Shown one piece after another: positions 7,474-56,282 of a stretch of DNA of 64,000 nucleotides (its first letter is position 1; the number at the start of each line of letters is the position of its first letter). Made by a program: the position numbers and the translations under genes. Origin of the DNA: an uncultured Bacteroidota bacterium. Its GTDB lineage: Bacteria > Bacteroidota > Bacteroidia > Chitinophagales > Chitinophagaceae. The stretch lies in assembly GCA_903877645.1 (NCBI GenBank), contig CAIRES010000073.1, positions 1-64,000 on the forward strand, in the 5' to 3' direction. The notes beneath the pieces were generated by a model that ran no database searches, was not told the DNA's origin, and worked only from the letters and a program-made list of their open reading frames with translations.

Positions 7474-7513
7474 TAATATTTATAACCTCCTAATTTTTAA
7501 AAAGTATGACCCC

Positions 7514-9753: not shown

Positions 9754-9806
9754 TGCTGTTAGTTTTTCAATGAGTAATTAGGGCGGGTAGGTGCTATATA
9801 TTGCTG

Positions 9807-12080: not shown

Positions 12081-12250
12081 TTAGTGTTATTGAGCCAAAT
12101 GTAAAAGAAATAAGTGTATCGCTACACACAAACGGGAAAGCAGTAAAAAAATGATTTTCAAATAATAAAAAGAACATTTGTTGTTTTCAAAAAATAGACA
12201 CTATATTTGCAGCCCCGAAGGGGGAAAACAATATAGCTCTTTAAGATTTT

Positions 12251-17348: not shown

Positions 17349-19319
17349 ATGAACAAGAGGCTACGGTGGATCGTCTATACGGCGGTCGTCTTTTTTATTC
17401 TATCGACTTTAGACAGAGTGGTACTGCTGTACACATCGCCACAGTTGCATGATGTGCAGGGACATACTTCCGGCGCCTTCCTGCTGGGTGCGCGCTACGA
17501 CCTGCGAGAGATCGGTGTTGTTGCAGTCCTTATGTTATTGCTGGGCTTTATACCCTTGTTCGATCCATTCAGGTCTTCCTTCGGCAAAAAATTCTGGAGT
17601 ACCCTGCTGTCTGTTATTTCTGTGCTGGCCATATTCATGTATGTGGCAGACATCATGCACTTTGCCTACCTGGCACAGCGGCTCAATGCCAGTGCCATCA
17701 ACTTCATCCCTGAGGGGGGTACTTCGGCATTGATGGTATGGCAAACGTACCCGGTCATTAAAATACTGCTCATCATTATTATTCTCAGTTGGCTGCTCAT
17801 CTTTTGCCTGCTGCGCATTATTAAGAACGTGGGCCGTAGTAGCGCTACGGGTAGTAAGGCTGTAAATATATCGGGCGGTATTGTGGTGTTCCTGCTTTGC
17901 GCGCTTTGTATCTTTGGCCGTGTAGGGCAGTATCCCCTCCGCTGGAGCGATGCCTTTGGCCTGGGCGACAGCCGCCTGTCGCAGCTCGCGCTCAATCCCT
18001 TCCAGAGTTTCTTCAGTTCACTCAGTTTTCGCCATACCAACTTCGACGAAAAAGCTACTGAGCAATACTACCCTATGATGGCCGGCTACTTTGGTGATGA
18101 TAATGCGCCGGTTGGCAAGCCTTCATTTTTGCGTACCATTGCCGGCACTGCACAAGCCACACGCCCGAATGTGGTACTGGTGATCTGCGAAAGCTTCAGC
18201 GCCTATAAAAGCTCTATGTGGGGCAATCCGCTTAATACCACACCGTTCTTCAGTACCATGTGCGATAATGGCGTGTTCTTCGATCATTGTTTCACACCAC
18301 ACTTTGGCACTGCCCGTGGCGTATGGGCTACCGTCACCGGAATTCCTGATGTGATGCTGGAGAAAACTGCGAGCCGTAATCCGCTTATCGTTGACCAACA
18401 TTCCATCATCAACGATTTCAAGGGCTACGATAAAGACTATTTCATTGGTGGCAGCACCAGTTGGGCCAACATAAAAGGCGTGCTGGAAAACAACATCACC
18501 GGCATCAATATACACGAACAGGGCAGCTATACCGCCAAGCGGGTGGATGTATGGGGCATCAGCGATAAGAATCTGTTCCTACAGGCCAATGAAGTGTTGC
18601 GCACCAAAACAGGGCCGTTCTTTACAGTGATACAAACATCAGATAACCACCGCCCCTACACGATACCAGAGGAAGACAGGGCGGAATTTAAGACAGTGAA
18701 CTACCCACAGGATACGCTCGTGAAGTATGGCTTCCAGAATAACGATGAACTAAATGCTTTTCGCTATACCGACTTCTCTTTCCATAAATTCATCGAGGCA
18801 GCAGGCAAGGAAAAATATTTCAATAACACGGTCTTTGTTTTTGTTGGCGATCATGGCATTCGTGGCGATGCAGGCAATATGTTCCCTCAGGCATGGACTG
18901 CTAATTCACTTACCTGTTTTCATGTGCCGTTATTGTTTTACGCGCCCGGCCTGCTGCGGCATGAGCGGCACACGATGGTCTGCTCGCAGGTGGATATACT
19001 GCCTACCATTGCCGGCATCACCGGTATACCCTACACTAATACCGCCATGGGCCGCGACCTGCTACACCTACAGGACACAAACTCCAATACTGCTTTCTTT
19101 ATAGATCATGATGTCAGGAATATAGGCGTAGTGCATGGTAGTTACATGATGCAACGTAACCTTGCTAATAATGCAGAACAACTGGTACCCATCTACTCAA
19201 ACGATCCCATTCCCGCCGATAGCGTAGTTTCACTCTCTGCCGACATGCGCAAGCGCATATCTGCCTTCTACGAGACCGCGCGTTACATGCTGTTCAACAA
19301 TGGTAATAAGCACAAATAA
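17349..19319 (+). CDS. LtaS-family sulfatase/phosphoglycerol transferase
   Basis: 656 residues from ATG 17349 (a GTG 45 bases upstream only lengthens a poor N-terminus). Five hydrophobic segments (about 1-205) precede a periplasmic alkaline-phosphatase-superfamily domain. Metal and catalytic positions are visible: Glu in 'VLVICES', the nucleophile region 'HFGTARG' with Thr, and Asp-His in 'VGDHG'. The family transfers phosphoglycerol or similar groups to lipids or glycans in the outer leaflet of the inner membrane. The substrate in Bacteroidota is not settled. Confidence 0.88.
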   Translation: MNKRLRWIVYTAVVFFILSTLDRVVLLYTSPQLHDVQGHTSGAFLLGARYDLREIGVVAVLMLLLGFIPLFDPFRSSFGKKFWSTLLSVISVLAIFMYVADIMHFAYLAQRLNASAINFIPEGGTSALMVWQTYPVIKILLIIIILSWLLIFCLLRIIKNVGRSSATGSKAVNISGGIVVFLLCALCIFGRVGQYPLRWSDAFGLGDSRLSQLALNPFQSFFSSLSFRHTNFDEKATEQYYPMMAGYFGDDNAPVGKPSFLRTIAGTAQATRPNVVLVICESFSAYKSSMWGNPLNTTPFFSTMCDNGVFFDHCFTPHFGTARGVWATVTGIPDVMLEKTASRNPLIVDQHSIINDFKGYDKDYFIGGSTSWANIKGVLENNITGINIHEQGSYTAKRVDVWGISDKNLFLQANEVLRTKTGPFFTVIQTSDNHRPYTIPEEDRAEFKTVNYPQDTLVKYGFQNNDELNAFRYTDFSFHKFIEAAGKEKYFNNTVFVFVGDHGIRGDAGNMFPQAWTANSLTCFHVPLLFYAPGLLRHERHTMVCSQVDILPTIAGITGIPYTNTAMGRDLLHLQDTNSNTAFFIDHDVRNIGVVHGSYMMQRNLANNAEQLVPIYSNDPIPADSVVSLSADMRKRISAFYETARYMLFNNGNKHK

Positions 19320-19344
19320 CTCTTTTATGCAAGTTGGCGGGCTA

Positions 19345-19541
19345 TTACGTAACACCTCCCCTTAGGGTCGGGTTGTCTCGCGTAAGTAGATACCCTAAAG
19401 TGGCAGAATATAAAAGCGAGGGACAACGCCTCGATATAGGAAATATATGATAAGCCCTGAAAGGGCGAAGTAATCGCCTTTTGAAAATTGGAATTTGTAC
19501 CTTGGATCTGGAATTTGTATCCTGGAATTTGGAATTTAAAA
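19345..19541. repeat. Intergenic dispersed repeats after the LtaS-like gene
   Basis: The gap holds an inverted 'ccctaaaggg'-type repeat (19351-19372) and a cluster of 'ggaatttg' units (19481-19541) ending three bases from the PBP1A stop codon. The two flanking genes converge here. No gene is seen. Confidence 0.65.
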
Positions 19542-19543
19542 AA

Positions 19544-21865
19544 CTACTGCTCTTGCGAAGTATCCACATTAGGTGCCACCGGATGCTCATTCGCTTCTTT
19601 TGCATCCTTGCCACTTGATTCCAGCCCGGCCCTGTCTACACTGTCCTTATCACTGGCATCGCAATCGTCAAATCCATCAGGTTGCTTAAAGGTAGCTGCC
19701 GGGTTAATGTGCAGGCTCTTATCAGCCCACACGCGCTTCATGAATAATGCCCATATTGGTAGCGCAGCAGAGGCCCCTTGCCCCAGCCGCTCGTCTTTGA
19801 AGCTGAATTCCCGGTCGTCGCAACCTACCCATGCGCCTGCGAGCAGTTCAGGGGTATAGCCTATGAACCATGCATCGGCCTGGCTATTGGTAGTACCTGT
19901 TTTGCCGGCTACATCTGCAGTTACATTGTATTTGAAGCGCATCCTTGCGCCGGTGCCGCCACTGGCTACTACGCCCCGCATCATCTTCACCATTTTAAAG
20001 GCTGTATTGGGGTCCACCAGTTCCTTCTGATGAGGCGAGAAGCTTTTGATGAGCATTCCGTTCTTGTCCTCTATCCGCGTTACAAAGAAAGGTTGCGTAT
20101 TCACGCCTTTGCCGGGGAACATACTATAAGCGCCCATCATCTCGAACAGCGAGATGTCTGATACGCCCAGCGCTACAGCAGGCACTTTGTCTAATCTACT
20201 CACCAGGCCGCATTTATGTGCAAAGTCCACAAAAGCATCAATACCTACTTGCTTCAGTACATACAATGCTGCATTGTTTATAGAGCGTGCTAACGCGACC
20301 TTCATGGTCAGATCGCCTAATACTTCACCGGCATCTGCATCATAAGGGTGGGAGAGGGTTGGGAATTCCTGCGGATCCGTTTTTACGACACCGCAAGGGC
20401 TGTAACCGTTGTTCACAGCAAAAGTATAGAGCAGTGGCTTTATAGTAGAGCCTACCTGCCGCTTGCTGTTGATGTTCACGTGATCGAACTGGAAGTAGTT
20501 GTGGTCTATACCGCCCACCCATGCCTTCACCGCGCCGGTAAAGGGGTCCATAGCCATAAAACCCGATTGAAGGCAGGTCTTCATGTACTTGATGGAGTCT
20601 ATTGGTGTCATCAGTGTATCTTTCATACGGTTCTTGTTCCATGCAAATACTTTCATTTTCATGGGATGATTCATGGCTGCCATCGCCTTATCTTCGTTCA
20701 TGTTCTGGTTACGGAACCACTGATACCTTTCTGATCCTTTAATGCTTGATTTAAGTATGCTCTGTATAGTCTGGCTCTTCGACCATATAGTCCCGCTGGC
20801 GTATGCCGGCTGCGCCATGAATTTTTTTTGCAGGCCCGTCAGGTGTTCTGCCATGGCCTCTTCCGCATATACCTGCATCTTCACATCCAGGGTGGTCCAT
20901 ATTTTCAGCCCGTCTTTGTAAATGTCGAATGGGGTGCCATCCGGCTTTTTCATGTCTTTCAGTGCGGCCTTCACTTGCTGCTCCACTACTTGCCTGAAGT
21001 AGGGTGCTATGCCATCATGGTAGTCTATTTTATGGTAGTCCAGCGGCGTTTCCTTGGCCGTCAGCTCCATGTATTGGGTGTCGTTAATGAAGTTGTATTT
21101 TCGCATCTGGTCCAGCACCACATTGCGGCGCTCTCTCGCTTTTACGGGGTGGCTGCGTGGGTTGTAAATGGTGTTGCCCTTCAGCATTCCTACCAGTGTT
21201 GCAGCTTCATCCACAGTTACCTTGTCGGGTGTTTTGTTATAAAAGGTAAGTGATGCATTACGGATGCCATATACATTATCCCCGAATGGAACTGTATTGA
21301 GGTACATGGTGATGATCTCATTCTTCGTCAGGTTGCGTTCCAGTTTCACTGCCAGCACCCACTCCTTCAGCTTCATAAAGGGCAGGGTCAGCATACTTTG
21401 GCTGGTTCTCGGGAAAAGGTTTTTCGCAAGCTGCTGGGTAATGGTGGAGGAGCCTCGCTTTTTATGCATCAGCACATACATCGGGATCGCCATCGTGGCA
21501 ATCGGGTCTATACCGGCATGTTCATAAAAGCGGGCATCTTCGGTGGCGAGTAGGGCATTCAATATGTTTGGCGATATCTCGGCATACTTGCTGTTCGACC
21601 GGTCCAGCACATAATACCTGCCCAGCAGGGTGCCATCTGCAGCATATACATCGGAGGAGAGTGCGCTTTGCGGGTTCTCCAGTTCGGCCAGCGATGGCAT
21701 ATAGCCTACCCAGCCGCTGTTGATGCCCCATATCAATGCAGAGAACCCAACGATCAGCAAAATGAACGTGATCCACAGGATCCTTACAGATCGCTTCATT
21801 CCACGGCCTTCCGCGGGTATATTCCCTGTTTTCTTTTTCAAAATATTATCCGGTTTGTTGGCCAA
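19544..21865 (-). CDS. Penicillin-binding protein 1A (bifunctional transglycosylase/transpeptidase)
   Basis: 773 residues. A basic N-terminal tail and one membrane anchor (about 28-48) precede a GT51 domain with catalytic Glu109 in 'ATEDARFYEHAGID' and 'GSSTITQQLAKNLF'. The transpeptidase domain has 'STIK' (SxxK), 'SIN' (SxN) and 'KTGT' in order. It polymerises and crosslinks peptidoglycan at the inner membrane. The start is TTG at 21865; an ATG at 21799 (MKRSVRILW) would drop the basic tail. The Lys-rich tail is usual in the phylum, so the longer form is kept. Confidence 0.93.
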   Translation of the reverse strand: MANKPDNILKKKTGNIPAEGRGMKRSVRILWITFILLIVGFSALIWGINSGWVGYMPSLAELENPQSALSSDVYAADGTLLGRYYVLDRSNSKYAEISPNILNALLATEDARFYEHAGIDPIATMAIPMYVLMHKKRGSSTITQQLAKNLFPRTSQSMLTLPFMKLKEWVLAVKLERNLTKNEIITMYLNTVPFGDNVYGIRNASLTFYNKTPDKVTVDEAATLVGMLKGNTIYNPRSHPVKARERRNVVLDQMRKYNFINDTQYMELTAKETPLDYHKIDYHDGIAPYFRQVVEQQVKAALKDMKKPDGTPFDIYKDGLKIWTTLDVKMQVYAEEAMAEHLTGLQKKFMAQPAYASGTIWSKSQTIQSILKSSIKGSERYQWFRNQNMNEDKAMAAMNHPMKMKVFAWNKNRMKDTLMTPIDSIKYMKTCLQSGFMAMDPFTGAVKAWVGGIDHNYFQFDHVNINSKRQVGSTIKPLLYTFAVNNGYSPCGVVKTDPQEFPTLSHPYDADAGEVLGDLTMKVALARSINNAALYVLKQVGIDAFVDFAHKCGLVSRLDKVPAVALGVSDISLFEMMGAYSMFPGKGVNTQPFFVTRIEDKNGMLIKSFSPHQKELVDPNTAFKMVKMMRGVVASGGTGARMRFKYNVTADVAGKTGTTNSQADAWFIGYTPELLAGAWVGCDDREFSFKDERLGQGASAALPIWALFMKRVWADKSLHINPAATFKQPDGFDDCDASDKDSVDRAGLESSGKDAKEANEHPVAPNVDTSQEQ

Positions 21866-43327: not shown

Positions 43328-46300
43328 ATGAAAAGATCATTACTCCTTTTAATGCTGGTGCTGAGCGCTCATGCGCTGTTTGCGCAGGTAATGCCTATAA
43401 CTGGCGGTGGGCCTGGTGGCAATTTGTGTATAGGCACGTCCTACACACTTAATGATGCAGACGCGCCATTGGGCGTATGGGAAACCAGCTCACCTGCTAT
43501 AGCTTCAATAGGCTCGGCAAGTGGAGTGGTGACGGGTTTGTCGGCAGGTGTGGTAACGATCACTTACTACATTTATCCTGTTTACGCAGTGAAGACATTT
43601 ACCGTAAACCCTGCCCCACGGGCAATAGCAGCTACGTCATCCACTATCTGCATCGGCGCTACAACAACAGTGACCGACCCTACAGGTGGTGGCAGATGGA
43701 CGAGCAGCGCACTGGGTGTGGCCAATGTAGGCACCTCCTCGGGCGTAGTACATGGAGTGGGCGCCGGTGTCACAGCCATCTCATATACCGTAATGGCAAC
43801 AGGTTGTTACACAACCACATCTATTAATGTAAATTCAGTAGCTATATCGGGGCCTAATGTAGCCTGCCTGGGTGCAGGCAGCATCACACTGATCGATGCC
43901 ACAGCCGGAGGAACCTGGAGCAGCAGCAGCCCATCTATAGGCTCTATAGATGCGGGCACAGGAGTGCTGACACCGATAGCAGCAGGTAATACAACAGTTA
44001 CTTATAACAACGGGCCGGGCTGTATATCCACAGAATTGATTACGGTAAGGCCGGTGCCATCCATATCGCCCAACCCCATCAATGCATGCGTAGGCAGCTC
44101 TGTAACATTAGTAGGCACGCCAACCGGTGGCTCATGGGCCAGCAGTAATACGGCCATAGCTACAGTGAATTTTGTGGGCGTAGTAACAGGCGTTACAGGC
44201 GGAACGGCCAGCATAGACTATATAGCTCCCGGTGGTTGTATCACTTCGGCATTAGTGAGTGTGAACCCGGTGCCCAGCGCTATAGTAGGCGCTACTTTCG
44301 TGTATTCAGGAGCAACAACTACGCTTGGCGATGTTACTTCCGGCGGCACCTGGAGCAGCGCCAATACTACGTTGGCTACGGTCAACTCATCGGGTGTGGT
44401 AACAGGTGTGTCTGCCGGGCTGGTAGATATTTTGTATACTTTGTCAACTGGTTGCGCTGCTGCTTTCCGTATAGAAGTGAATCCCATGCCTGCAACTGCC
44501 GACCTTGAAGCCTGGTGGCCGTTTTGCGGCGGAGATACTGCCGACTACAGCAGGCCGGGCGGTGGGCCATATACCTTGCTGAACCATCCTGATGTGGGCC
44601 TGCCTACCATAGTGCCGGCCACGCTTACTGCCGACAGATTTTTAGCGCCAAATAATGCATACGAATTCAGTGGCAACAGCGCAATGCATTACAGCACGTA
44701 TCTGCCCACAACCAGCCTTACCGGAGATTTTACTTATTCGGTATGGATATATCCATCCGGGCCGCAGTCGTCAATTATCGCTTATAACGGTAACCCGAAC
44801 AGTGATGGTTTTGGGTTTGTAATGGACGGAGGCACCTTAGGTACACCCGGAAATAATGTAAGTATACTTATAGGAGGGCAAGGTGAATTTTTGAGTACGC
44901 CTCTTTCCAGTTTTCCTCCACTGGCACAGTATAACGGATGGACTAATTTGATGCTTGTAAAAAACGGGGGTAGTTTCCGTTTTTATATGAATGGGTCTAC
45001 TGTAGGGTTTTTCATCAATACATTCTATGCGATAGCTCCGGGTAGTTTTTTCACACTTGGGTACAACACATCAGGTGGGCCGATAGCCCCTTCCGGCTTC
45101 CAGGGTGGTATTGATGACATTACGGTTATAGACCGCCAGCTTACGAATGATGAGCGTGTATCTCTTTTTGGTTTCAATCCTGATGCGCAGAAATTTTCGC
45201 TCGGCAATGACACAACGATCTGTTCAGACATCATGCAACTGGCGCCCAATCCACAAACTATTGGGTCGAACTATACCTGGGAGAGCCTGCCACCCACAGG
45301 TGGTTATGTGGTGCTGAATACTACCGATACCATACTCACTGTGTATCCCAACCAAGGGGCCAACGTATATGCACTATCATTGAACAAACCATACGGTTGC
45401 TCGGCAAATGATACTATTGTAGTGACCAAAACGCCTATCCCTGTAAACCTGGGGCCAGACCTGAAGTTGTGTATAGGTGATACACTTTCACTAACCAATA
45501 ACTTCCCTCATTCCAGCTTCCTGTGGAGTACCGGCGATACTGCTCATACTATAAAGGTGACTACTACCGGCACGTATTATGTGACAGTGGACAGTGAATA
45601 TTATTTTACCAACGTGCTGACCGGTCTGCCAGACAGCAGTACCTGCGTGGGTAGAGATACAGTGAGAGTTCAATTTCATGCGATACCTGTGTTGCAACTA
45701 CCTGCCGCGCAATCAAACTGTATAGGTAATCCCTTTACGTTAGTAGAATATTATGACCCGGCCTATACCTATAAATGGATAGACAATACAACCAAGGATT
45801 CCCTTACTGTAGCCACTTCAGGTGTGTATTGGGTTAAAGTAAATGATACAGGATGTGTACGTATTGATACATCAGTAGTAACCATCGTATATGATACGCT
45901 GACCTTTACAATGCCTGATGTAAAGATGTGCAAAGGCGGGCCGCCCGTACAAACAGTAGGCTTTATTACCAATAATTTTGTGGCTAACTACCAATGGACG
46001 CCTTCGGCAGGTATGGCATTGTCTAATACTTACGACCCTGTGATCTACCCAGATACCTCTGCAACTTATGTACTTACGGTGTCGTATCCCGGATGTCCGG
46101 ATATTGTTGATTCTTTCCATGTAGATGTGGAGCCTGTGCCAACTGCTGTGCTCATTAACAACAATGCAACTATTAATATTTGCGAAAACGATACGATGCA
46201 CCTCACCGCAAATGTGTCGCCTAACTGGTATACCGGCTATACCTACAGTTGGTCTCCCGGCAAATACATAGACGATTCAACAACGCAGACTGTTGTACTT

Positions 46301-47152
46301 ACCGGTGGCGATAGCACCAAGCTGGTAGTGACAGTAAGTACGCCCGCAGGCTGCACTTATGCCGATTCGGTAGCTGTATATGTTCACCCGGGATATTTCG
46401 ACAGCCTTGGTGCAACACTTTTTGATCTGTGCCCCGGAGATTCGGTGCAGCTAATGCCGTATGACACCATACCCGGTACATCTGGTAATATAGTATCTAA
46501 TCACTGGTCGCCAGGTGTGTACCTTGATGATTCTATGTCACTAACGCCATGGGTACATCCGATCACATCTACGAACTACACATTGATCGCTACGAGCGAA
46601 TATGGGTGTAAGGATACATTGAAAGTACAGGTAATTGTGCATCCTGCCGCAGTGATCTACATGGATGATTCCACGATCATTTATCCGGGAGAAAGCTACC
46701 ATATACAGCCTCAAACAAACTGTGTGAATTTCACCTGGTTCCCGCCGCTTGGCTTAAATGATATTCATGTTGTTGATCCGGTAGCTTCGCCATCAACGCA
46801 TACTACGTATCATGTGCATGCCACAACCGAAGCAGGCTGTGCAGTTGACGATTCGTTCATTATTCATGTAGACCCATATACTTTACTGGGTGTGCCTAAT
46901 GCGTTTGCTCCGGGCAACGGGCCTAACAGCGTGTTCAAGGCTATACCAAGGGGCGCTGTGACGCTTAATTACTTCCGTATCTATGACAGATGGGGGGTAG
47001 AAGTATTTGAAACAAAAGATATTAATGAAGGATGGGATGGTAAGTATAAAGGCGTTCCGCAACCATTCGGTGTGTATGTGTATGAGCTGGGAGCAGTATC
47101 CATAACCGGGGAATTATACATCAGGACAGGCAATGTGACTTTGCTTAGATAA
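43328..47152 (+). CDS. Large secreted protein with Ig-like repeats, LamG-like domain and T9SS type B (CHU_C) sorting domain
   Basis: 1,274 residues. Signal peptide (MKRSLLLLMLVLSAHALFAQ). Five BIG2-type Ig-like repeats of ~75 residues follow (about 25-395; each has 'G.WSSS...ATV...GVVTGVSAG'), then a concanavalin/LamG-like domain (about 400-590; 'FTYSVWIYPSG', 'GFQGGIDDITVIDRQLTNDE'), PKD/Ig-like repeats with 'W.PG.YLDDS' (about 590-1180), and a gliding-motility-associated C-terminal domain ('VPNAFAPGNGPNSVFKAIP', 'FRIYDRWGVEVFE', 'WDGKYKGVPQPFGVYVY'). It is a T9SS client, probably a surface adhesin. ATG at 43328. Confidence 0.92.
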   Translation: MKRSLLLLMLVLSAHALFAQVMPITGGGPGGNLCIGTSYTLNDADAPLGVWETSSPAIASIGSASGVVTGLSAGVVTITYYIYPVYAVKTFTVNPAPRAIAATSSTICIGATTTVTDPTGGGRWTSSALGVANVGTSSGVVHGVGAGVTAISYTVMATGCYTTTSINVNSVAISGPNVACLGAGSITLIDATAGGTWSSSSPSIGSIDAGTGVLTPIAAGNTTVTYNNGPGCISTELITVRPVPSISPNPINACVGSSVTLVGTPTGGSWASSNTAIATVNFVGVVTGVTGGTASIDYIAPGGCITSALVSVNPVPSAIVGATFVYSGATTTLGDVTSGGTWSSANTTLATVNSSGVVTGVSAGLVDILYTLSTGCAAAFRIEVNPMPATADLEAWWPFCGGDTADYSRPGGGPYTLLNHPDVGLPTIVPATLTADRFLAPNNAYEFSGNSAMHYSTYLPTTSLTGDFTYSVWIYPSGPQSSIIAYNGNPNSDGFGFVMDGGTLGTPGNNVSILIGGQGEFLSTPLSSFPPLAQYNGWTNLMLVKNGGSFRFYMNGSTVGFFINTFYAIAPGSFFTLGYNTSGGPIAPSGFQGGIDDITVIDRQLTNDERVSLFGFNPDAQKFSLGNDTTICSDIMQLAPNPQTIGSNYTWESLPPTGGYVVLNTTDTILTVYPNQGANVYALSLNKPYGCSANDTIVVTKTPIPVNLGPDLKLCIGDTLSLTNNFPHSSFLWSTGDTAHTIKVTTTGTYYVTVDSEYYFTNVLTGLPDSSTCVGRDTVRVQFHAIPVLQLPAAQSNCIGNPFTLVEYYDPAYTYKWIDNTTKDSLTVATSGVYWVKVNDTGCVRIDTSVVTIVYDTLTFTMPDVKMCKGGPPVQTVGFITNNFVANYQWTPSAGMALSNTYDPVIYPDTSATYVLTVSYPGCPDIVDSFHVDVEPVPTAVLINNNATINICENDTMHLTANVSPNWYTGYTYSWSPGKYIDDSTTQTVVLTGGDSTKLVVTVSTPAGCTYADSVAVYVHPGYFDSLGATLFDLCPGDSVQLMPYDTIPGTSGNIVSNHWSPGVYLDDSMSLTPWVHPITSTNYTLIATSEYGCKDTLKVQVIVHPAAVIYMDDSTIIYPGESYHIQPQTNCVNFTWFPPLGLNDIHVVDPVASPSTHTTYHVHATTEAGCAVDDSFIIHVDPYTLLGVPNAFAPGNGPNSVFKAIPRGAVTLNYFRIYDRWGVEVFETKDINEGWDGKYKGVPQPFGVYVYELGAVSITGELYIRTGNVTLLR

Positions 47153-47969: not shown

Positions 47970-49166
47970 ATGACAGCATTGCTGATCGTTATCCTTGTAC
48001 TTGCCATTACCTTCGATTATATTAACGGGTTTCATGACGCGGCTAATTCGATAGCTACGATCGTGTCTACAAAGGTACTCACGCCTTTCCAGGCAGTGGT
48101 ATGGGCTGCGCTCTTCAACTTTGTGGCATTCTTTATTTTTAAAGACCATGGTGTAGCCAATACCATAGCCAAAACTGTAAAAGAAGATTTTATAACGCTG
48201 CCGGTAATTCTATCCGGGCTGATAGCCGCCATCTCCTGGAACCTGCTGACGTGGTGGTTCGGGATACCATCCAGTTCTTCCCACACACTGATAGGTGGCT
48301 TTGCCGGCGCTGCTATAGCGCATGCTGGGTTTCACGCGGTGAATTCAGAACCTATTATAAAAACGGTGAGCTTTATCGTACTGGCGCCATTAATGGGCAT
48401 GATCATGGCGTTCATCATTTCGTTATGGTTTATTTATTCTTTCCGGAAAAGCCACTGGCCGAAAGTTATATCCACTATAGTGATATTAACAGTGGCGATC
48501 ATCTTATTTAATATACTTGAGAAAGATCCCGCGAAGTTGAAAGGCCACATGGACAATTATTACCTGAACATACTGATGGATACCCATAATTTCAAATGGA
48601 TATTGCTTGGTCTTATTCTTACGGCGATCAGTGTCTTTACCATGTTTCTCGGATCTCTGAATACAGCGCGTTCTACGCTGTACCTCAAGCGTTTTCAACT
48701 TGTATCATCTGCCGCATTCAGCATAGGGCATGGTGGCAATGATGCGCAAAAAGTAATGGGTATCATCACAGTGGCGCTCATAGCAGGGCACCGGATACAT
48801 TCCTTCTCAGAGATGCCTGTATGGGTGCCATTGGCCTGTTATTCGGCTATTGCTGTGGGCACTATGAGCGGTGGCTGGAAGATCATTAAAACAATGGGTA
48901 CGCGCATCACCAAAGTAACGCCATTTGAAGGCGTGGCTGCGGAAACAGCCGGCGCCATTACTTTATTCCTTACTGAGAACCTGAAGATACCTGTGAGCAC
49001 TACGCATACCATTACAGGGTCTATAATAGGCGTAGGCGCTACCAAACGCCTGTCGGCGGTGCGCTGGGGCGTTACCATCAATCTGTTGTGGGCATGGATA
49101 CTGACGATACCTGTGAGCGGGCTGCTGGCAGCCGGTGTGTTTTATATTGTGAACCTTTTCCTCTAA
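47970..49166 (+). CDS. Pit-family inorganic phosphate transporter
   Basis: 398 residues, about ten membrane helices. Both internal signature repeats are present: 'GFHDAANSIATIVSTKVLTPFQAVVWAALFNF' near the start and 'SIGHGGNDAQKVMGIITVAL' in the middle, with 'GIPSSSSHTLIGGFAGAAIA' and 'LKIPVSTTHTITGSIIGVG'. It imports metal-phosphate by proton or sodium symport. It forms an operon with the DUF47 gene. Confidence 0.95.
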   Translation: MTALLIVILVLAITFDYINGFHDAANSIATIVSTKVLTPFQAVVWAALFNFVAFFIFKDHGVANTIAKTVKEDFITLPVILSGLIAAISWNLLTWWFGIPSSSSHTLIGGFAGAAIAHAGFHAVNSEPIIKTVSFIVLAPLMGMIMAFIISLWFIYSFRKSHWPKVISTIVILTVAIILFNILEKDPAKLKGHMDNYYLNILMDTHNFKWILLGLILTAISVFTMFLGSLNTARSTLYLKRFQLVSSAAFSIGHGGNDAQKVMGIITVALIAGHRIHSFSEMPVWVPLACYSAIAVGTMSGGWKIIKTMGTRITKVTPFEGVAAETAGAITLFLTENLKIPVSTTHTITGSIIGVGATKRLSAVRWGVTINLLWAWILTIPVSGLLAAGVFYIVNLFL

Positions 49167-49241
49167 GAAATTTTCCGGGTTAAGATAAAGTCTTTAATTT
49201 GTGCTTTGCTGCCTTTATGTGCAGCTATAAAGGTGTTTAAA

Positions 49242-49535
49242 ATGATTAAGAAAGAGATACTTCCTGATTCAGTGGTGGTGAGAGAAGAGAAAGGCTACCT
49301 GGCCAGCGCCGTGGGCGATGAATTGGTGATGATGGGTATAGCCAGCGGGAATTATGTGGGTATGAACAGTGTAGGCAGCGTAATATGGGGCCTATTAGAG
49401 CAGCCAATACAGGTAAATGAAGTGACAGCAAGGCTTATGGAAATATACGATGTGCGCAAAGAAGATTGCGAAAAGCAGGTGCTTAACTACCTAAGAAAAA
49501 TACAGGAACAGGGAATGCTGATAATAGCCTGTTAA
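49242..49535 (+). CDS. PqqD-like RiPP recognition protein (lasso B1/RRE)
   Basis: 97 residues from ATG 49242; a frame from an upstream TTG adds 12 unconserved residues. The PqqD fold is recognised from 'SVVVREEKGYLASAVGDELVMMGIASGNYVGMNSVGSVIWGLLEQPIQVNEVTARLMEIYDV' and 'FLxxLxxQGMLI'-like end. In lasso clusters this stand-alone domain binds the leader peptide and brings it to the B2 protease. It converges with the precursor gene, 27 bp away. Confidence 0.88.
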   Translation: MIKKEILPDSVVVREEKGYLASAVGDELVMMGIASGNYVGMNSVGSVIWGLLEQPIQVNEVTARLMEIYDVRKEDCEKQVLNYLRKIQEQGMLIIAC

Positions 49536-49562
49536 TGAAATGAATCTGCTTAACCGACTGAA

Positions 49563-49712
49563 TTAACTCAATAAACCGCCATCTGAGCCGGGAGCGCCGG
49601 CCCCAAGCGTTACGTCTTTTACAGACAATAATACGATCTCGGGCTCGTTCCAAACTTTCTTATTAGATGTATTTACAGTTTGCTCCATGGTCTTATTATT
49701 CTCGTGTTTCAT
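49563..49712 (-). CDS. Predicted lasso-peptide precursor
   Basis: 49 residues, ATG at 49712, stop at 49563. The leader contains 'WNEPEIVLLS' (residues 21-30), matching the Tyr/Trp-x-x-Pro motif that lasso RRE domains bind, and has Thr35 at position -2 to the predicted cleavage, as in almost all lasso leaders. The core would be residues 37-49, GAGAPGSDGGLLS, with Gly1 and Asp8 for an eight-residue macrolactam and a five-residue tail. The C-terminal residue is Ser, the site phosphorylated in paeninodin-type precursors. The tail has no bulky plug residue. It lies at the downstream end of the cyclase operon on the same strand and has its own -7 box. Confidence 0.85.
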   Translation of the reverse strand: MKHENNKTMEQTVNTSNKKVWNEPEIVLLSVKDVTLGAGAPGSDGGLLS

Positions 49713-49759
49713 TGTGAGTCTATTGAGTTAAAGTATTGTTTCCATTTACTTTAGCGATG

Positions 49760-49792
49760 CAAAAGTACCATTTTCCCTTTACTTTTAAAAGT
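49760..49792 (-). promoter_or_regulatory. Promoter and possible operator of the precursor gene
   Basis: On the minus strand 'tacttttg' at 49767-49760 matches TAnnTTTG, 48 bases before the precursor ATG. Just upstream is the perfect 12-bp palindrome 'acttttaaaagt' (49781-49792), in the spacer/-33 position, a plausible operator. The remaining stretch 49793-49943 is A+T-rich and shows no gene. Confidence 0.5.
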
Positions 49793-49943
49793 GGTCAGGC
49801 ATTTTAAATGTATGATCAGCTCCTAAAGAAAAGCAGGCGTTAATTGCATTTCAGTAACAAATGTAATATTGAATCACTATAATTAAAAATTTATTTTTAT
49901 TTAATAGTTAATTATTGTCTTGCATTAGTGTAAAAATAATATT

Positions 49944-51827
49944 TTATTTAAATAAATACCCATTCTCAGATAGCCATTTTAAGAATGCAGCCGTAATAAC
50001 ACCCTGTGCAATGCGAATGCCGGCAATGTCTTTGCCGCTGGTCATGCCCGCTGCTGGTTGCAGGCTTTGTAATTGGCTGAGTATGCGCTCCGGAGCAATA
50101 TATTGCGAAGTGTGCCCTGGCCGGTTGAACAGATCATTGATCGCCTCTTTTTCCTTGATGATCCTGCTGATATAATCGGGTGAATAGGGTTGCTTATCTG
50201 CCCTCCATTGAATTTCCGGAGGTAAAATGCCTTCCATTGCCCTGCGCAGGAGGCTGCGTTTAGAGCCGCCTACCCTGTATTGTTCTACAGGCACATCGAG
50301 CATGAATTCCATTACATTTTTATCGAGTAGGGGTGTGGCGGCCTCTATATTATATGCTGCGAAGGTATTGGCAAAATTACCCAGCAGCCTGCCCATCTGC
50401 CCGCTGCTGATGTATTGTATCATCCAGGCTGCCTGGTCTTTTGGCGGGGTATGATCGATAGCCGATTTGTACTTGTCTGTAAAAGTTTGATTGAGTGGCG
50501 TATGTGTGCGCCAGTCTATACGGTCTTTGTTCTTGCTTGCTTCGTAATATTTGTAAAAGGTAGTAAAGGCTATATAGTCTGTTTTGAGCAGTTGCAGGAA
50601 AGAGCTTTCGTGGCTCAGCGATTCTTGCAGCAGGGTGAATGCTTTTTTGAACTTGCCCTGCGAGATGAGCTGGTAGAGCACAAAATTGCCTTTGTGCGAA
50701 ACGAGAAGATCGCCCCCAAAACCGGATAGCGCTACGCGTATCCCTTTTTGCTGCATAGCCTGCTGCAAAGCACGGTCTGTGTAGAAGAAAGGATTAGGTA
50801 TACTATCCTCCATATCGAAAGATGCTTCGAAGTTGGTGAGCGGGCCTGTGCCGGGGTCTTCTACGAAGGTTTGCTCGAGATTCTTTACACGTTGGCCTAC
50901 GATGCCAATATATTTACGCTCGTCAGTTTCAATGCCTGTATATCCTTCAGGCAGTACGGTGGAGAAGGCATACAATGGTTTGTTTTTTTGTTGCAGTATT
51001 TGGCCGGCTATGCATGCAACTGCGGATGAGTCCAGGCCACCGCTAAGGGTAATGCCCACAGGCATATCTGTGTGCAGCCGGTACGCTATTGTTTTGAAGA
51101 GCAGGTCGCGGAGGCATTCGGCCCAGTCGCTGTCATTTGAAAAATGATATTTCCCAAGGGGTTGCGGTGCCCAATATTCACTGATTCGGGCTGCGTTGTT
51201 ATGATCTATAGTGAGTGTATGGCCGCCGCGCAGTGCAAAGACCTCACTGTTGTAGGTGCGGGACTGATCGGAGTGGCGGAAGAAGTACTCAATCAGCGAT
51301 TCTTCATTGAAGGTATTCGGTGTTTTTTTTAGAGCGAGTATGCCCTTTATTTCGCTGGCGAAAATAAAAGCATCAGCAGTATCATAATAGTATAATGGCC
51401 GGGCGCCAATATGATCTGTAGCACAGAACAGGGTGTGGGTTTGTTTGCTGAAGATGGCAAAAGCAAATTCACCCTCGAGATGGAGCACACAATCCTGCGC
51501 CCATTTTTCATAAGCCGCAAGGATAAGGTGGCTGTCGCTTAATGTAGAGGCCAGTTGCGGCTCGATGTTTAACAGGCTGCTGAGTTCTTGCCGGTTATCT
51601 ATCCGGGCATCGGCGGTAATCACCAGGTCGCCACGCTCCGGTGGAGTAAAGCCTGTTTGCTGTAATGCCGTTACCGAAAGTTGGTGATTGCCCAGGAAGG
51701 CCGTAGTATCCTGCCAGTAGCCTTTGCCATCGATGGCCCGGTGAAGTAGTACGTGCTGTATCTTTGCGATGAGTTGCTCATCCAAAGGCTGCCCGTTTTT
51801 ATTAATGATACCGAAGATGGCGCTCAT
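49944..51827 (-). CDS. Lasso-peptide macrolactam synthetase (asparagine synthetase-like, C protein)
   Basis: 627 residues. It has the two domains of class B asparagine synthetases: a glutaminase-like half (1-200) and an ATP-pyrophosphatase half with the PPi loop 'SGGLDSS' at 262-268. Residue 2 is Ser (MSAIFGI) in place of the catalytic Cys, so it should not use glutamine. This is expected of lasso cyclases, which adenylate the side chain of Asp/Glu and close the ring with the new N-terminus. It is followed by the precursor and preceded by the B2 protein with a nine-base gap. Confidence 0.92.
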   Translation of the reverse strand: MSAIFGIINKNGQPLDEQLIAKIQHVLLHRAIDGKGYWQDTTAFLGNHQLSVTALQQTGFTPPERGDLVITADARIDNRQELSSLLNIEPQLASTLSDSHLILAAYEKWAQDCVLHLEGEFAFAIFSKQTHTLFCATDHIGARPLYYYDTADAFIFASEIKGILALKKTPNTFNEESLIEYFFRHSDQSRTYNSEVFALRGGHTLTIDHNNAARISEYWAPQPLGKYHFSNDSDWAECLRDLLFKTIAYRLHTDMPVGITLSGGLDSSAVACIAGQILQQKNKPLYAFSTVLPEGYTGIETDERKYIGIVGQRVKNLEQTFVEDPGTGPLTNFEASFDMEDSIPNPFFYTDRALQQAMQQKGIRVALSGFGGDLLVSHKGNFVLYQLISQGKFKKAFTLLQESLSHESSFLQLLKTDYIAFTTFYKYYEASKNKDRIDWRTHTPLNQTFTDKYKSAIDHTPPKDQAAWMIQYISSGQMGRLLGNFANTFAAYNIEAATPLLDKNVMEFMLDVPVEQYRVGGSKRSLLRRAMEGILPPEIQWRADKQPYSPDYISRIIKEKEAINDLFNRPGHTSQYIAPERILSQLQSLQPAAGMTSGKDIAGIRIAQGVITAAFLKWLSENGYLFK

Positions 51828-51836
51828 AGTTTTTCT

Positions 51837-52253
51837 TTAACTGCCGAACCAACTAACTATTGTGAACTGACTAATATCCGGCCCACCCGTAACGATGGTA
51901 TTGTTTACTTTGAGCCATGCATGTGCCCGCATTTCGCTTTGATTGCTTTTGTTGATGCCAAAATACACTGTAGTGCTGATACCACGAAGCCTCAGCATTA
52001 TTTTAGCTGCAATCGCCTGCTCGAAACACTTGGTGCGCCACGGCGAGCGAGTGCCTGCACGAATGATAGCCGTGCTGACTCCGGCTAGGGCAATTGGGTC
52101 TTGTTGAAGATCAGCCGGAGCCTCATACATAGCCTTGCCGAGCATTTTCGCGATCTTGCGGAAAGGAACAAACACCAACACGAGCCGTGCAAAAGCAAGG
52201 AATATCCAGGCCTCAGCAAATAGCAGGTAGTCTGATAGTGTTCGTCCTTTCAT
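51837..52253 (-). CDS. Lasso-peptide leader protease (B2, transglutaminase-like)
   Basis: 138 residues. The catalytic triad is visible as Cys76 in 'WRTKCFEQA', His111 in 'RAHAWLKV' and Asp126 in 'TGGPD'. The N-terminal helices (about 8-40) are typical of B2 proteins. It cuts the leader off, with the PqqD-like protein supplying recognition. The start ATG overlaps the stop of the kinase gene (ATGA), so they are translationally coupled. Confidence 0.92.
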   Translation of the reverse strand: MKGRTLSDYLLFAEAWIFLAFARLVLVFVPFRKIAKMLGKAMYEAPADLQQDPIALAGVSTAIIRAGTRSPWRTKCFEQAIAAKIMLRLRGISTTVYFGINKSNQSEMRAHAWLKVNNTIVTGGPDISQFTIVSWFGS

Positions 52254-53167
52254 GCCTGGGTGATAGTCGGTTCGGTAAAAAGTGATTCAAGTTTGTCTAT
52301 AAATGCGGGTATGTCATTGCCTGCAGGCCTGTATATCTCTACCACGTTGCAACTACCCGCTAACGCAGTGATGGTTTTGAAGTATATAGTGCGCAGGGCG
52401 AGATCGGCAATAAGATAACGGCGATAGACCTGCTGCGCCAGTACATCAAAAGCTTTGTGTCCGGAGAGCTTGTTGTAGCGCACCTCGTTGGCGCTATCGT
52501 CTTTACTTATGATGAAGATAGTGCTGATTGCTGCTGCTTCCTCATGAAATTCCTCATGAAAGAAATGGCCATATTTATCGATATCGGGTTTCAGGCGAAA
52601 GTTTTTGTTGTTATATGCAGGGGCGTTGATTAGCGCAAGTGTATCATCCCAGAGTTTGAGCATGGGGTAGGACGCAGTGCCCTGTCCATCTTTGCCGATG
52701 ACACAAATATCGTCAGTAAATATTTTATAACCCCGCAAGGCCAATTGGGCAATAGTAGTGGATTTACCTGCACCCGAATCACCGGTGAACAAAATGACCT
52801 TATCGTTTTTGATGATACCTGACGCATGAAGGGGTATCAATCCTTTGCGGAACAAAATGAATGCCATTACCGACCCGAGCAGGAAGAGGCGAATACTGCG
52901 GCCATCTATGCCGGGATAAGGGTCTATTTGGATGATATCGTTATTAAGTACCTGGTACCTGCAATTGCCCTTGATGTCGAGGTAATATTCTGTGGGACTG
53001 ATAACAGTCGCATAATCGTCCTGTTCATAGCGGTCGCCGGGAATATCGCTGTTTACAGCGCCATGAATGATAGTAATATCAGGATGTGTGAAGGTAGCAG
53101 CGAGTAATTCGGGAAATTCAATATCAGATGCAATATTTAATCCAAAGCCACGGTACTGATGCATCAT
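52250..53167 (-). CDS. HprK-like kinase (precursor C-terminal Ser kinase)
   Basis: 305 residues. The P-loop 'GDSGAGKST' at 129-137 is preceded by the HprK-type His in 'LHASGI' (His114) and followed by 'FTDDICVI' (150-157). Such kinases occur in lasso clusters of the paeninodin type, where they phosphorylate the C-terminal Ser of the precursor. First gene of the leftward operon; a -7 box 'taaatttg' lies at 53197-53190 on the minus strand. Confidence 0.88.
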   Translation of the reverse strand: MMHQYRGFGLNIASDIEFPELLAATFTHPDITIIHGAVNSDIPGDRYEQDDYATVISPTEYYLDIKGNCRYQVLNNDIIQIDPYPGIDGRSIRLFLLGSVMAFILFRKGLIPLHASGIIKNDKVILFTGDSGAGKSTTIAQLALRGYKIFTDDICVIGKDGQGTASYPMLKLWDDTLALINAPAYNNKNFRLKPDIDKYGHFFHEEFHEEAAAISTIFIISKDDSANEVRYNKLSGHKAFDVLAQQVYRRYLIADLALRTIYFKTITALAGSCNVVEIYRPAGNDIPAFIDKLESLFTEPTITQA

Positions 53168-53189
53168 GATGTTTTGTGTATATAATTGA

Positions 53190-53210
53190 CAAATTTAGAG
53201 ATTATATTTG
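53190..53210. promoter_or_regulatory. Divergent promoter of the lasso cluster
   Basis: Two -7 boxes sit almost back to back: 'taaatttg' on the minus strand (53197-53190) for the kinase operon and 'tatatttg' on the plus strand (53203-53210) for the transporter operon. Both coding starts lie within 25-35 bases. Shared control of both arms is likely. Confidence 0.55.
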
Positions 53211-53240
53211 TTTAATGATAGGGGAAAAAAGAGGGCGCGG

Positions 53241-55016
53241 ATGAGCTATATAAAAGAGGCCAATCACTTCAGGAAGGATTTTTACCGTACAGTATTGCTC
53301 ATCTGGCAGGCGGGACGGTATCTTTCTGTGCTCAATATGTTGCTTTTGTTTTTACAGGCCTTGCTGCCGGTCGCCTCCCTTTACTTCATTAAAATGCTGG
53401 TGGACCTGATCTCGGAGCCACAAAAGCGCGGGTTTGAAACCATTTATCCTGTTATTATCGGTTTTGCGGCAATACAGTTCCTGCTGGCAGTGGCTAACCA
53501 GGTATCCATCTATATCTACACCATACAGTTGCAAAAACTGTCTATGCACCTCTCTGAAAAGGTGCTGCAAAAAGCAGTGGCGGTAGATATGGCCTATTAC
53601 GAAAACCCGGACTACCATGACACGCTGCATTTGGCACAGCAGAAGTCGGAGTACCAGGCACCGGTGTTGCTGAACAATATGAACGGACTTGTGCTCAACA
53701 GCCTGTCGCTGGCCATGCTGATCGCGTTCCTGTTCAAGCTGCAATGGTTTTATGCGTTGATATTTGTGGCCATATCAATTCCCCTTGCGTGTGTGAAATG
53801 GTATTATGGGTACCGGCTCTTCAAACTGGAGAAGAAGTATGTACATATGGAGCGGGAAGCAAATTATTACCACCAGGTACTTACAGGGGTTTCTTATGCC
53901 AAAGAGGTGAGGTCTTTTGGCTTTGCAAATGTATTCATCACCAAATACAAAGACATCAAGGATATTATTTATAAAGCGAAAGATGGTGTGAATAAGAAAT
54001 TTACCGTATTGAGCTTGCTGGCGCAGGTGATAGAAGTGGCGATCATGGCGGCTATACTGGTGGTGCTGACTAAGAATGCCTGGATGGGCGCTATAACGCT
54101 CGGTGTGTTTGTTATTTACTTGCAGGGCTTTCAACGGCTGCAAACGGCCTCAAAGAATTTCCTGCAATCGTTGGTGCAGATATTTCAGCAAAGGCTTTTC
54201 TTAAGGGATATTTTTACATTTTTTGATATTGAGGAAAAAAGAAAATTGGCCTCAAAGCCTTTTCCGGCTGCCATTGGCGAAGGGCTTGTGGCAGAAGGCA
54301 TCTCGTTCTCTTATCCGCAAACGGGTAAGGAGGTGCTGACGAATGTGTCTGTCAAATGTGCGCCGGGGAAGATCATCGCTATTGTGGGTGAAAACGGATC
54401 AGGCAAGTCTACATTAGTGAAATTGCTGGCCCGGACATACGATCTGCAGCAAGGGAGTATACAGATAGATGGGGTGGATATATGCGATATTGCTGACGAT
54501 AGCTATAAGCGCAACAGCATTTTCCTGTTCCAGGATTTTGAGAAGTATTTTATGACCATTGGTGAGAACATTACGCTTGCCGATGAGCTACAGGCAAGGG
54601 ATGGCGATATGAAGACCGCTGCCGCAGCGGCGGGGGCAGATGAATTCATTGCCATGCTCAATGAGCAATATAATACGAGGCTGGGGCGCACGTTTCAGCG
54701 TTCTGAGCAACTAAGTGGTGGGCAATGGCAGAAGCTGGCGCTGGCTCGAACTTTTTATAAGCAGGCAAAACTCATTATACTGGACGAGCCCACCAGCAGC
54801 ATAGATGCCATGGCTGAGTATGAGATATTCCGAAACCTGAAGGAGCATGCGAAAGACAAGATGGTGATCCTGATCTCGCACCGGATGTATAATCTGAAAC
54901 TGGCGAGCAATATTTATGTCATGAAGGATGGTGCAGTTGTAGAAAGCGGAACGTATGAAGAACTGATCAATAAGCAGGGTATTTTCAGGGATATGTATAA
55001 CAAGCAGCAACTATGA
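53241..55016 (+). CDS. ABC transporter, fused permease-ATPase (lasso exporter)
   Basis: 591 residues from ATG 53241. Six membrane helices (about 15-300), then an ATPase domain with Walker A 'GENGSGKST', signature 'LSGGQWQKLALARTF' and Walker B 'LIILDEPTSSID'. There is no C39 peptidase domain, as expected because B2 does the leader cleavage. In lasso clusters this D protein exports the peptide and gives self-immunity. The stop overlaps the start of the next gene (ATGA). Confidence 0.92.
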   Translation: MSYIKEANHFRKDFYRTVLLIWQAGRYLSVLNMLLLFLQALLPVASLYFIKMLVDLISEPQKRGFETIYPVIIGFAAIQFLLAVANQVSIYIYTIQLQKLSMHLSEKVLQKAVAVDMAYYENPDYHDTLHLAQQKSEYQAPVLLNNMNGLVLNSLSLAMLIAFLFKLQWFYALIFVAISIPLACVKWYYGYRLFKLEKKYVHMEREANYYHQVLTGVSYAKEVRSFGFANVFITKYKDIKDIIYKAKDGVNKKFTVLSLLAQVIEVAIMAAILVVLTKNAWMGAITLGVFVIYLQGFQRLQTASKNFLQSLVQIFQQRLFLRDIFTFFDIEEKRKLASKPFPAAIGEGLVAEGISFSYPQTGKEVLTNVSVKCAPGKIIAIVGENGSGKSTLVKLLARTYDLQQGSIQIDGVDICDIADDSYKRNSIFLFQDFEKYFMTIGENITLADELQARDGDMKTAAAAAGADEFIAMLNEQYNTRLGRTFQRSEQLSGGQWQKLALARTFYKQAKLIILDEPTSSIDAMAEYEIFRNLKEHAKDKMVILISHRMYNLKLASNIYVMKDGAVVESGTYEELINKQGIFRDMYNKQQL

Positions 55017-56197
55017 TAGCGGCGGAGGACCTGATGCGGAAATATAGCGCCGAGACGACAGCACTCGTGTTGGCTTGCCGGGTATTCTTAGGCACTGCTT
55101 CGGAAAATGAATTAGGCGGATTTTGTAAAAAAAATAGAATAGACTGGCCGCTATTCTACAAAATGGCCAAAGTACACCACATAAGGCCGGTGGTGAACAA
55201 AGCGATCGCAAATATAACAACTGATGATGCCACAAAGCAGCAGCTACAGGCTGATTGCAGGCTTATCGCATTGAGGAATTTTGAGCATTATAAAGAGTTG
55301 CTCCGCCTCCATGCATTGTTTCAGCAGGGTGGGGTGGTTGTTGTTCCCTACAAAGGAAGCTCATACTGCCTGCAATTTTATGGCGACCTGAGCCAGCGGG
55401 AATCATCTGACCTCGACTTCCTGATGCAGTACAGCATGGATGACCTGGAGATTTTGGAAAGGCTATTTGAGGAACAGGGGTATGCTAATCTCTCCGAAGT
55501 GCCTGCAAATTTTAAAGTATATTATTTTGAGCATGTGCGGGAGTTCAAGTTCGCAAAGTTTGAGGAAGGTCAGAGGAAATTCTTGGCGGAATTTCACTCA
55601 TCGCTTAACGATGCTGTGTTCGAGACTTCGACCCCTATCAGTAATGACTATCTTTTTGCCGATCTGCAGGAGCAGGATATGAATGGGTATAAGATAAAAG
55701 CCTTATCACCTACAAAGCATCTGATAGCGATGCTTTCGCACCATGGGGTAAGAGAGCAGTGGACCGCTCTGAAAAACCTGGTGGATATAGCTGTGGCTAT
55801 AAAGAATGGCGATAGTATAAACTGGGATGTCGTTGTAACTGCCAGCCATCAATACGGATTTTACAAGGTGCTGGGCATGGGTGTGGGTATGATCAGCGAC
55901 CTGTTGGGCATTGAGCCGCCTGTTGCCATTGAAAGGGATCGGGAATTAGCTCCGTGGATGAATAAACTTTTCTTGCGCCATACCTATACCACGGACCGTA
56001 GCTGGTTGTATAATTTCTCATTGAAATTGAAGTCTAAGGACAGTGTGGGAGCACAGGCAAAAATACTACTGAACCATTTGCTGTATGCCGGGCGGCCATC
56101 CGTCCTCGACTACAAATTTGTGGCGCTGCCCAGGCCGTTATTTTTTCTATATATCCTCATAAAGCCCATCCGGAAAATGAGCAAAGGGAGCAAGTAA
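55013..56197 (+). CDS. Nucleotidyltransferase-fold protein (NTP_transf_5)
   Basis: 394 residues. 'VVVVPYKGSSYCLQFYGDLSQRESSDLDFLMQ' contains the G-S and D-x-D elements of the nucleotidyltransferase fold; the remaining part is helical. Members accompany HprK-like kinases in lasso clusters (the PadeN type); their reaction is not well established. Translationally coupled to the exporter. It could modify the phosphorylated or free C-terminus of the peptide, which is inference. Confidence 0.82.
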   Translation: MIAAEDLMRKYSAETTALVLACRVFLGTASENELGGFCKKNRIDWPLFYKMAKVHHIRPVVNKAIANITTDDATKQQLQADCRLIALRNFEHYKELLRLHALFQQGGVVVVPYKGSSYCLQFYGDLSQRESSDLDFLMQYSMDDLEILERLFEEQGYANLSEVPANFKVYYFEHVREFKFAKFEEGQRKFLAEFHSSLNDAVFETSTPISNDYLFADLQEQDMNGYKIKALSPTKHLIAMLSHHGVREQWTALKNLVDIAVAIKNGDSINWDVVVTASHQYGFYKVLGMGVGMISDLLGIEPPVAIERDRELAPWMNKLFLRHTYTTDRSWLYNFSLKLKSKDSVGAQAKILLNHLLYAGRPSVLDYKFVALPRPLFFLYILIKPIRKMSKGSK

Positions 56198-56252
56198 CAT
56201 GTTACAGGAACAAATTAATCCTCTGTTTAACATATAATTATGCAAAAGACGC

Positions 56253-56282
56253 TTGATGTGCGCCTCTTTTTCGGTACTTTTG
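56253..56282 (+). promoter_or_regulatory. Promoter of the SNF2 helicase gene
   Basis: 'ttg' at 56253-56255 and 'tacttttg' at 56275-56282 are 19 bases apart; the ATG at 56316 follows. This placement shows that the longer frame beginning at 56253 overlies the promoter. Confidence 0.6.

Follow-up and report, generated by a model that had tools for sequence, protein, structure and literature searches.

A predicted lasso peptide cluster with kinase and nucleotidyltransferase genes in an uncultured Chitinophagaceae genome

We analysed a 64,000-nucleotide stretch of DNA (the window) from an uncultured Bacteroidota bacterium of the family Chitinophagaceae (assembly GCA_903877645.1, contig CAIRES010000073.1), in which positions 49242–56197 hold seven genes, B1, A, C, B2, K, D and N, that look like a complete set for making a lasso peptide. 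All seven are open reading frames (ORFs), and together with profile matches and motifs they support the claim of an earlier note, made from the sequence alone, that a full lasso gene set with kinase and nucleotidyltransferase is present in a Bacteroidota genome. Judged from these sequences, it is a real, intact-looking lasso cluster of an already known general kind. We put the probability at roughly 0.87 that the product of the cluster is a class II lasso peptide, from a Bacteroidota branch equipped with kinase and nucleotidyltransferase.

Leader-processing proteins and the cyclase

B1 (49242–49535, plus strand) is a discrete PqqD-like leader-recognition protein (RiPP recognition element, RRE; RiPP, ribosomally synthesized and post-translationally modified peptide) of 97 amino acids. 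It scores 58 bits on PF05402, above cut-off, and 76.8 bits on NF033536, just under the cut-off of 80, and it matches the solved chain 9x90_B, named 'Lasso peptide biosynthesis PqqD family chaperone' (1.5e-15), and TbiB1 (2.3e-8). B2 (51837–52253, minus strand), the transglutaminase-like leader peptidase, reaches 96.2 bits on NF033537 (cut-off 33) and 81.4 bits on PF13471; a search of solved structures found no relative of it by sequence. The earlier note had assigned B2 a Cys/His/Asp triad. Its Cys76 and His111 hold up, as all 40 aligned rows (37 distinct) have them, but the usual place of the Asp, which from McjB we take to be residue 12 after the His, is occupied by Gly123, and we dropped an Asp at that place. 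Gly stands there in 35 of 41 rows (32 of 38 distinct) and in 16 of 20 of a wider set, L091–L110, in which one row missed the search pattern (L numbers denote comparison loci). The B2 of a Priestia paeninodin-family cluster (L142) also has Gly, so this residue is no novelty; another Priestia B2 (L141) has Asp.

The cyclase C (49944–51827, minus strand) is an asparagine-synthetase-like protein of 627 residues. Its best match is NF033535, at 423.9 bits for a cut-off of 525, and PF00733 and PF13537 are above cut-off; on the asparagine synthase model TIGR01536 it reaches 242.2 bits, below the cut-off of 267.1. The two asparagine synthases of the same genome score 323 and 194 on NF033535 and pass the AsnB model with 425 and 359. 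We do not regard the NF033535 shortfall as decisive, because the annotated lasso cyclase of Priestia aryabhattai scores only 388.8 bits on that model and because the genome's own AsnB pair passes the AsnB model, which the window cyclase fails. In a quick tree of 47 rows, eight of them on long branches, rooted on the genome's two AsnB proteins as sole outgroup, the window cyclase pairs with that of the same-genus locus L058 (53% identity; Shimodaira–Hasegawa-like approximate likelihood-ratio test (SH-aLRT) 95), and both lie within a 13-row Bacteroidota clade from lasso-type loci (SH-aLRT 99). The paeninodin-family cyclase of L142 falls in a separate 11-row group (SH-aLRT 99; one reference). The cyclase of L147, another same-genus locus, left out of the tree, is 51% identical to that of the window. 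The earlier note had staked its reading on a cyclase placed inside the lasso clades, and the window cyclase indeed groups with cyclases of other B1/B2 clusters. The Ser that replaces Cys2, which the note had also pointed out, is present yet ordinary: 27 of the 39 cyclase ORFs listed begin MS, four more have MS a few residues on, and the genome's two AsnB proteins begin MC. A single-protein cyclase scan of genome contigs returned no relative, and the relatives in a plasmid collection were all below 60%.

Precursor, kinase and nucleotidyltransferase

The precursor gene A (49563–49712, minus strand) encodes 49 amino acids with a W21-x-x-P24 leader motif, T35 at position −2, D44 and a C-terminal S49. 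Placed by hand from the rule of Thr at −2 and from relatives, the predicted core (49566–49604, minus strand) is GAGAPGSDGGLLS, 13 residues that would form a ring between G1 and D8 and a tail GGLLS, with S13 as the predicted phosphorylation site. We aligned 12 precursors: that of the window, 10 from the same clade and one of the Priestia paeninodin family. W21, P24 and D44 are invariant in 12 of 12 and the cores differ; on this alignment, a conserved leader with a variable core is the pattern of RiPP precursors. In the hand-placed cores of the cyclase clade, Asp8 is present in 10 of 10 distinct sequences and Gly1 in 9 of 10, and an eleventh core, from L147, has Asp at both 7 and 8. Precursor A had no Pfam or NCBIfam match at E ≤ 1, the paeninodin model NF033524 included; the L142 precursor, as a control, passes that model with 57.7 bits, and the model also misses the precursors of L020, L070 and L088. 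The computed [M+H]+ is 1040.50 for the lasso, 1120.47 for the phosphorylated form and 1282.52 with phosphate and hexose. Among the comparison loci, the precursors of L021 (13272–13397) and L026 (3269–3400) have Ile or Val at −2, not Thr, as in Bradymonas, and L023 has two precursor genes (7349–7513 and 7759–7923) with the same core, differing only near the start.

K (52250–53167, minus strand) is an HprK-like kinase of 305 residues with H114, the P-loop GDSGAGKS (129–136) and D152–D153. Its profile matches, TIGR04352 (2.5e-9) and PF07475, are weak and both under cut-off. H114, S131, G134, K135, S136, D152 and D153 are invariant in 10 of 10 aligned kinases, and a profile of the ten matches the HPr kinase chains 2qmh and 1jb1. 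The His, P-loop and Asp-Asp are the residue set described for lasso kinases (PMC10368454, PMC9266682). PadeK, ThcoK, SyanK and PsmK modify a C-terminal Ser, and PsmN is tied to the addition of a hexose (PMC9266682, PMC8498205).

We counted terminal residues in the window and in loci L017–L029 and L058–L090 minus L076, L079 and L080, taking as precursor candidates small ORFs with a [W/Y]xxP motif at most 1 kb from C, K, B1 or B2. Nine loci had no candidate, and L019 and L072 are one contig. Three of the 36 distinct candidates were set aside by eye for want of precursor likeness. Of the other 33, 28 have Ser as the last residue (28 of 36 with the three included); among other intergenic small ORFs the count is 63 of 926. 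New precursors from the same genus (L147, L149 and L151) end in Ser in 3 of 3 cases, which brings the pooled count for Bacteroidia-type loci to 31 of 36; no candidate was found in the same-genus loci L146, L150, L152 and L153. The precursor of L087, which has B1, B2, C and N and no kinase in its stretch, ends in Ala. L020 and L025 also have no kinase in their stretches and their precursors end in Ser; each of their genomes encodes one elsewhere, at a distance of about 8 kb in L020.

N (55013–56197, plus strand), a nucleotidyltransferase-like protein of 394 residues, scores 135 bits on PF14907, above cut-off, and K114, G115, D125, D133 and D135 are invariant among 12 aligned N proteins. No relative by sequence was found among solved structures. 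A predicted model (predicted local distance difference test, pLDDT, 87) gives matches to nucleotidyltransferase folds, namely 5uvd (E 4.6e-4), TglT, ANT(2'')-Ia, MenT and FKRP; 5uvd alone is below 0.001. Because these are matches to the general nucleotidyltransferase fold, they do not fix the reaction. The modelled likeness to FKRP, a ribitol-phosphate transferase, offers a lead only, that N might form a phosphodiester.

Other kinase and tailoring genes were seen in the comparison loci. L134 (7974–8972) and L135 (2217–3128) carry kinases of the K family with no lasso cyclase in the stretch covered; these may work in trans on clusters located elsewhere in their genomes or be part of LPP-like systems. 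L065, from Mucilaginibacter, has three K-family kinase genes within about 10 kb (9767–10702, 11180–12133 and 18839–19759). A PF00685 sulfotransferase gene adjoins a lasso-type kinase in L021 (13450–14304), L026 (5912–6787), L028 (6189–7073), L133 (8911–9681), L135 (3125–3943), L149 (12644–13498) and L151 (12195–13055), and similar PKSGNTW proteins were recognized by eye in L150, L152 and L153. This neighbourhood is not new, having been noted in the literature for Bacillota clusters; sulfated products, if made, would be of interest. A membrane protein of about 340 residues is encoded between K and B2 in L148 (7354–8379) and L147 (9402–10439) and is absent from the window cluster; it has no Pfam match, and that it is a tailoring partner of N is a guess.

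Proposed route, short tails and alternatives

The genes and their motifs, the conserved leader motif, Asp8 and the mostly terminal Ser are read directly, and they suggest a route in which cleavage site, ring, phosphorylation, action of N, threading and export are all predicted steps. B1 would bind the leader through its WxxPxI motif, and K would phosphorylate the precursor at its C-terminal Ser. With B1 as its guide, B2 would cut the leader off after T35-L36, and C would activate the side chain of Asp8 with ATP and link it to Gly1, so closing the ring around the pre-folded tail. N would add a group to the phosphate, a hexose by analogy with PsmN, and D (53241–55016, plus strand), an ATP-binding cassette (ABC) exporter with permease and ATPase domains (PF00664 and PF00005, both above cut-off), would export the product.

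Seven of the 11 predicted tails (those of the window, L058, L065, L070, L088, L021 and L147) are without any F, W, Y, H, R or K, and the other four (Chitinophaga type, L077, L020 and L025) carry F or Y. Among 60 published lasso peptides tabulated in PMC12427821, not one is without all six residues (Fisher's test, 7/11 versus 0/60, p 2.5e-7), a comparison in which rings were placed by hand for the predicted cores and by one rule (last Asp/Glu at 7–9) for the published peptides, whose tails are mostly longer and some of which are held by disulfides. Composition alone predicts about 1.9 such tails in 11 (p ~8e-4); both p values overstate the difference because the loci are related. The five-residue tails of the window and L070 are below the published minimum of six by the same rule, and the 13-residue core equals the shortest in the table (PMC12427821); it is not the shortest lasso peptide, as huascopentin also has 13 residues (PMC12427821). 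Within the clade, tails of five to eight residues are found repeatedly beside intact machinery (the set of 14 short tails was hand-picked).

This leaves three readings: Leu may be enough to lock an eight-residue ring, the product may be unthreaded, or the lock may be the modified C-terminal Ser. The last of these would have a C-terminal phosphoserine, perhaps enlarged with a sugar by N, replace the plug as stopper of a minimal lasso of eight plus five residues, which is a tentative and rather unlikely idea. Since the kinase acts while the precursor is still linear, the tail would already carry such a stopper when the ring closes, and the knot could then be released by a phosphatase or a sugar hydrolase. 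The excerpted literature on lasso phosphorylation, unthreading and plugs does not state the idea (PMC9266682, PMC13352647, PMC12427821), and the role of phosphorylation in lasso peptides is described as an open question (PMC7533575). A branch with mostly plug-free predicted tails, yet with a kinase and a mostly terminal Ser, makes phosphate or phosphosugar as a post-translational lock directly testable.

Several points weigh against the proposed lasso product and its phosphorylation at the C terminus. The cluster is known from its genes, and the peptide itself is a prediction. C and B1 fall under the curated lasso cut-offs of NF033535 and NF033536, as might an asparagine synthase and unrelated neighbours assembled by chance. 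Such an assembly is scarcely credible, since B2 passes the NF033537 cut-off, C is below the AsnB cut-off and stands apart from the genome's two AsnB proteins, and the co-occurrence of the same parts in many distant loci contradicts it; on the profile scores and the tree we ruled it out, along with C as a plain asparagine synthase. With respect to the kinase, three nearly identical Chitinophaga/Flavihumibacter precursors of the same clade end in Pro (SAP) with a kinase adjacent, and L084 has a kinase and a precursor ending in Val. In the more distant set L091–L110 the precursors of kinase-bearing clusters often end in a residue other than Ser, so the terminal-Ser rule belongs to this part of the family. 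BsfK (PMC10368454) and LppK (PMC13381572) phosphorylate Ser3, which means that family does not fix kinase specificity, and the window core offers a second candidate site in Ser7.

These observations on BsfK and LppK, and the SAP-ending precursors that retain a kinase, are what would be found if K acted on ring Ser7 or another substrate and the terminal Ser were kept for some other reason, such as export. We consider this improbable, because the terminal Ser is the most kept core position besides Gly1 and Asp8, and Ser7 is not conserved in the clade. A phosphorylated but unthreaded product, a branched-cyclic lariat with G1–D8 closed and GGLLS unable to hold the thread, is unlikely as well. It would fit a five-residue tail free of the six residues when none of the 60 published peptides has such a tail or one under six residues, and caulosegnin I, which also has an eight-residue ring, loses its interlocked form at 95 °C (PMC13352647). 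Leu may nonetheless lock a small ring, and short tails recur in the clade beside intact machinery. Cyclases homologous to C are known to make threaded products, which counts further against the lariat.

Genomic setting and known systems

The layout is as the earlier note described it: two divergent blocks, K-B2-C-A leftwards with the precursor at the far end and D-N rightwards, and B1 convergent with A. K overlaps B2, and D overlaps N, by four bases each. The split arrangement, B1 convergent with A included, also occurs in the same-class locus L088, and its left half in L147, whose contig ends in K. L058, to which same-genus L148 is letter-for-letter identical, has mirrored K-B2-C and D-N halves with no B1 seen. 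Same-genus L146 is 87% identical to the window in D, 83% in K and 73% in B2. TAnnTTTG is the Bacteroidota −7 promoter motif, and boxes matching this consensus lie upstream of K, D and A. The putative divergent promoter region (53190–53210) holds TAAATTTG (minus strand, 53190–53197) and TATATTTG (plus strand, 53203–53210), and a candidate promoter of A's own, TACTTTTG (minus strand, 49760–49767), lies 48 bp upstream of the A start; the motif is common in the window (65 observed, 54.7 expected). The 34 bases that span both K/D boxes are identical in L146, and the boxes are not kept in the aligned stretch of L148.

The cluster is flanked by genes named by eye, a phosphate-permease-like gene on the left (47970–49166) and an SNF2-like helicase gene on the right (ORF from 56253, start probably 56319). 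Upstream of the permease-like gene, 43328–47152 encodes a predicted secreted protein of 1274 residues with repeated Ig-like segments and an end resembling type 9 secreted proteins, both judged by eye. GC content gives no sign of recent transfer. In the same-genus genome G097 about 2.8 kb with other genes lies between the flanking permease and helicase genes, and in G171 these two are on different contigs. The permease-like gene is followed in same-genus L151 by a different lasso-type cluster with a sulfotransferase, and in L130 by unrelated genes (an acyltransferase and others) where the window (49166–56253) has the lasso cluster. Because the interval after the permease-like gene differs within the genus, the site looks variable, as if such clusters come and go.

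NF033537 matches occur in 9 of 35 genomes of the genus (the window included), 9 of 195 of the family, 13 of 298 of the order (12 above cut-off) and 36 of 395 of the phylum, in samples that overlap. Lasso B2 genes of the phylum are found by standard models, and such clusters are known elsewhere. Bacteroidota have been called an underexplored lasso source (PMC7533575). No isolated Bacteroidota lasso peptide turned up in the partially covered literature; among nine lasso clusters expressed in PMC9576775, the two products named in the excerpt come from Bacillus cereus and Streptacidiphilus. The product of the window cluster could therefore be an early lasso peptide for the phylum.

The earlier note had called the cluster paeninodin-type. 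That description suits the gene content (kinase, nucleotidyltransferase and terminal Ser), but not the precursor, which has no NF033524 match and a predicted ring of 8 rather than 9, or the cyclase, which belongs to another group. Paeninodin, from Paenibacillus dendritiformis, likewise comes from a kinase-bearing set, and its C-terminal Ser is phosphorylated by PadeK (PMC9266682, PMC8498205). It has 23 residues, AGPGTSTPDAFQPDPDEDVHYDS, with the acidic residue at 9 and a long tail with F, H and Y (PMC12427821), whereas the window has a predicted 13-residue core with Asp8 and the tail GGLLS, and genes in two divergent blocks. The Priestia aryabhattai plasmid pB2.3 cluster (L142), annotated 'paeninodin family lasso peptide', shares C, A, an HprK-like kinase (annotated aldolase), B1, B2 and an ABC gene with the window, as well as the WxxPE leader, Gly at the usual B2 Asp place and the terminal Ser; it differs in its one-direction order, a predicted ring to D9, a 15-residue tail, its NF033524 pass and its cyclase group. 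The pseudomycoidin cluster psm of Bacillus pseudomycoides has kinase, nucleotidyltransferase and terminal Ser in common with the window, but is from Bacillota, has a 24-residue core, AGPGKRLVDQVFEDEDEQGALHHS, and has the hexose tied to PsmN, a step only inferred for the window (PMC9266682, PMC12427821).

The bsf cluster of Bradymonas sediminis has A, B1, B2, C, D, K and N and a G1–D8 ring, as predicted for the window, with Ile at −2 where the window has Thr, and phosphorylation at Ser3 (PMC10368454). LPP clusters of Bacillota share the RRE, HprK kinase, NTP transferase and MsbA-like transporter, but have a signal-peptidase-like enzyme and are mostly without lasso cyclase or B2, both of which the window has (PMC13381572). 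Also close to the window are loci of its own genus (L058, L146 and L147) and class (L088), in which the core letters differ from those of the window; L058 and L088 lie in its cyclase clade, and in L147 and L088 B1 is convergent with A, as it is here.

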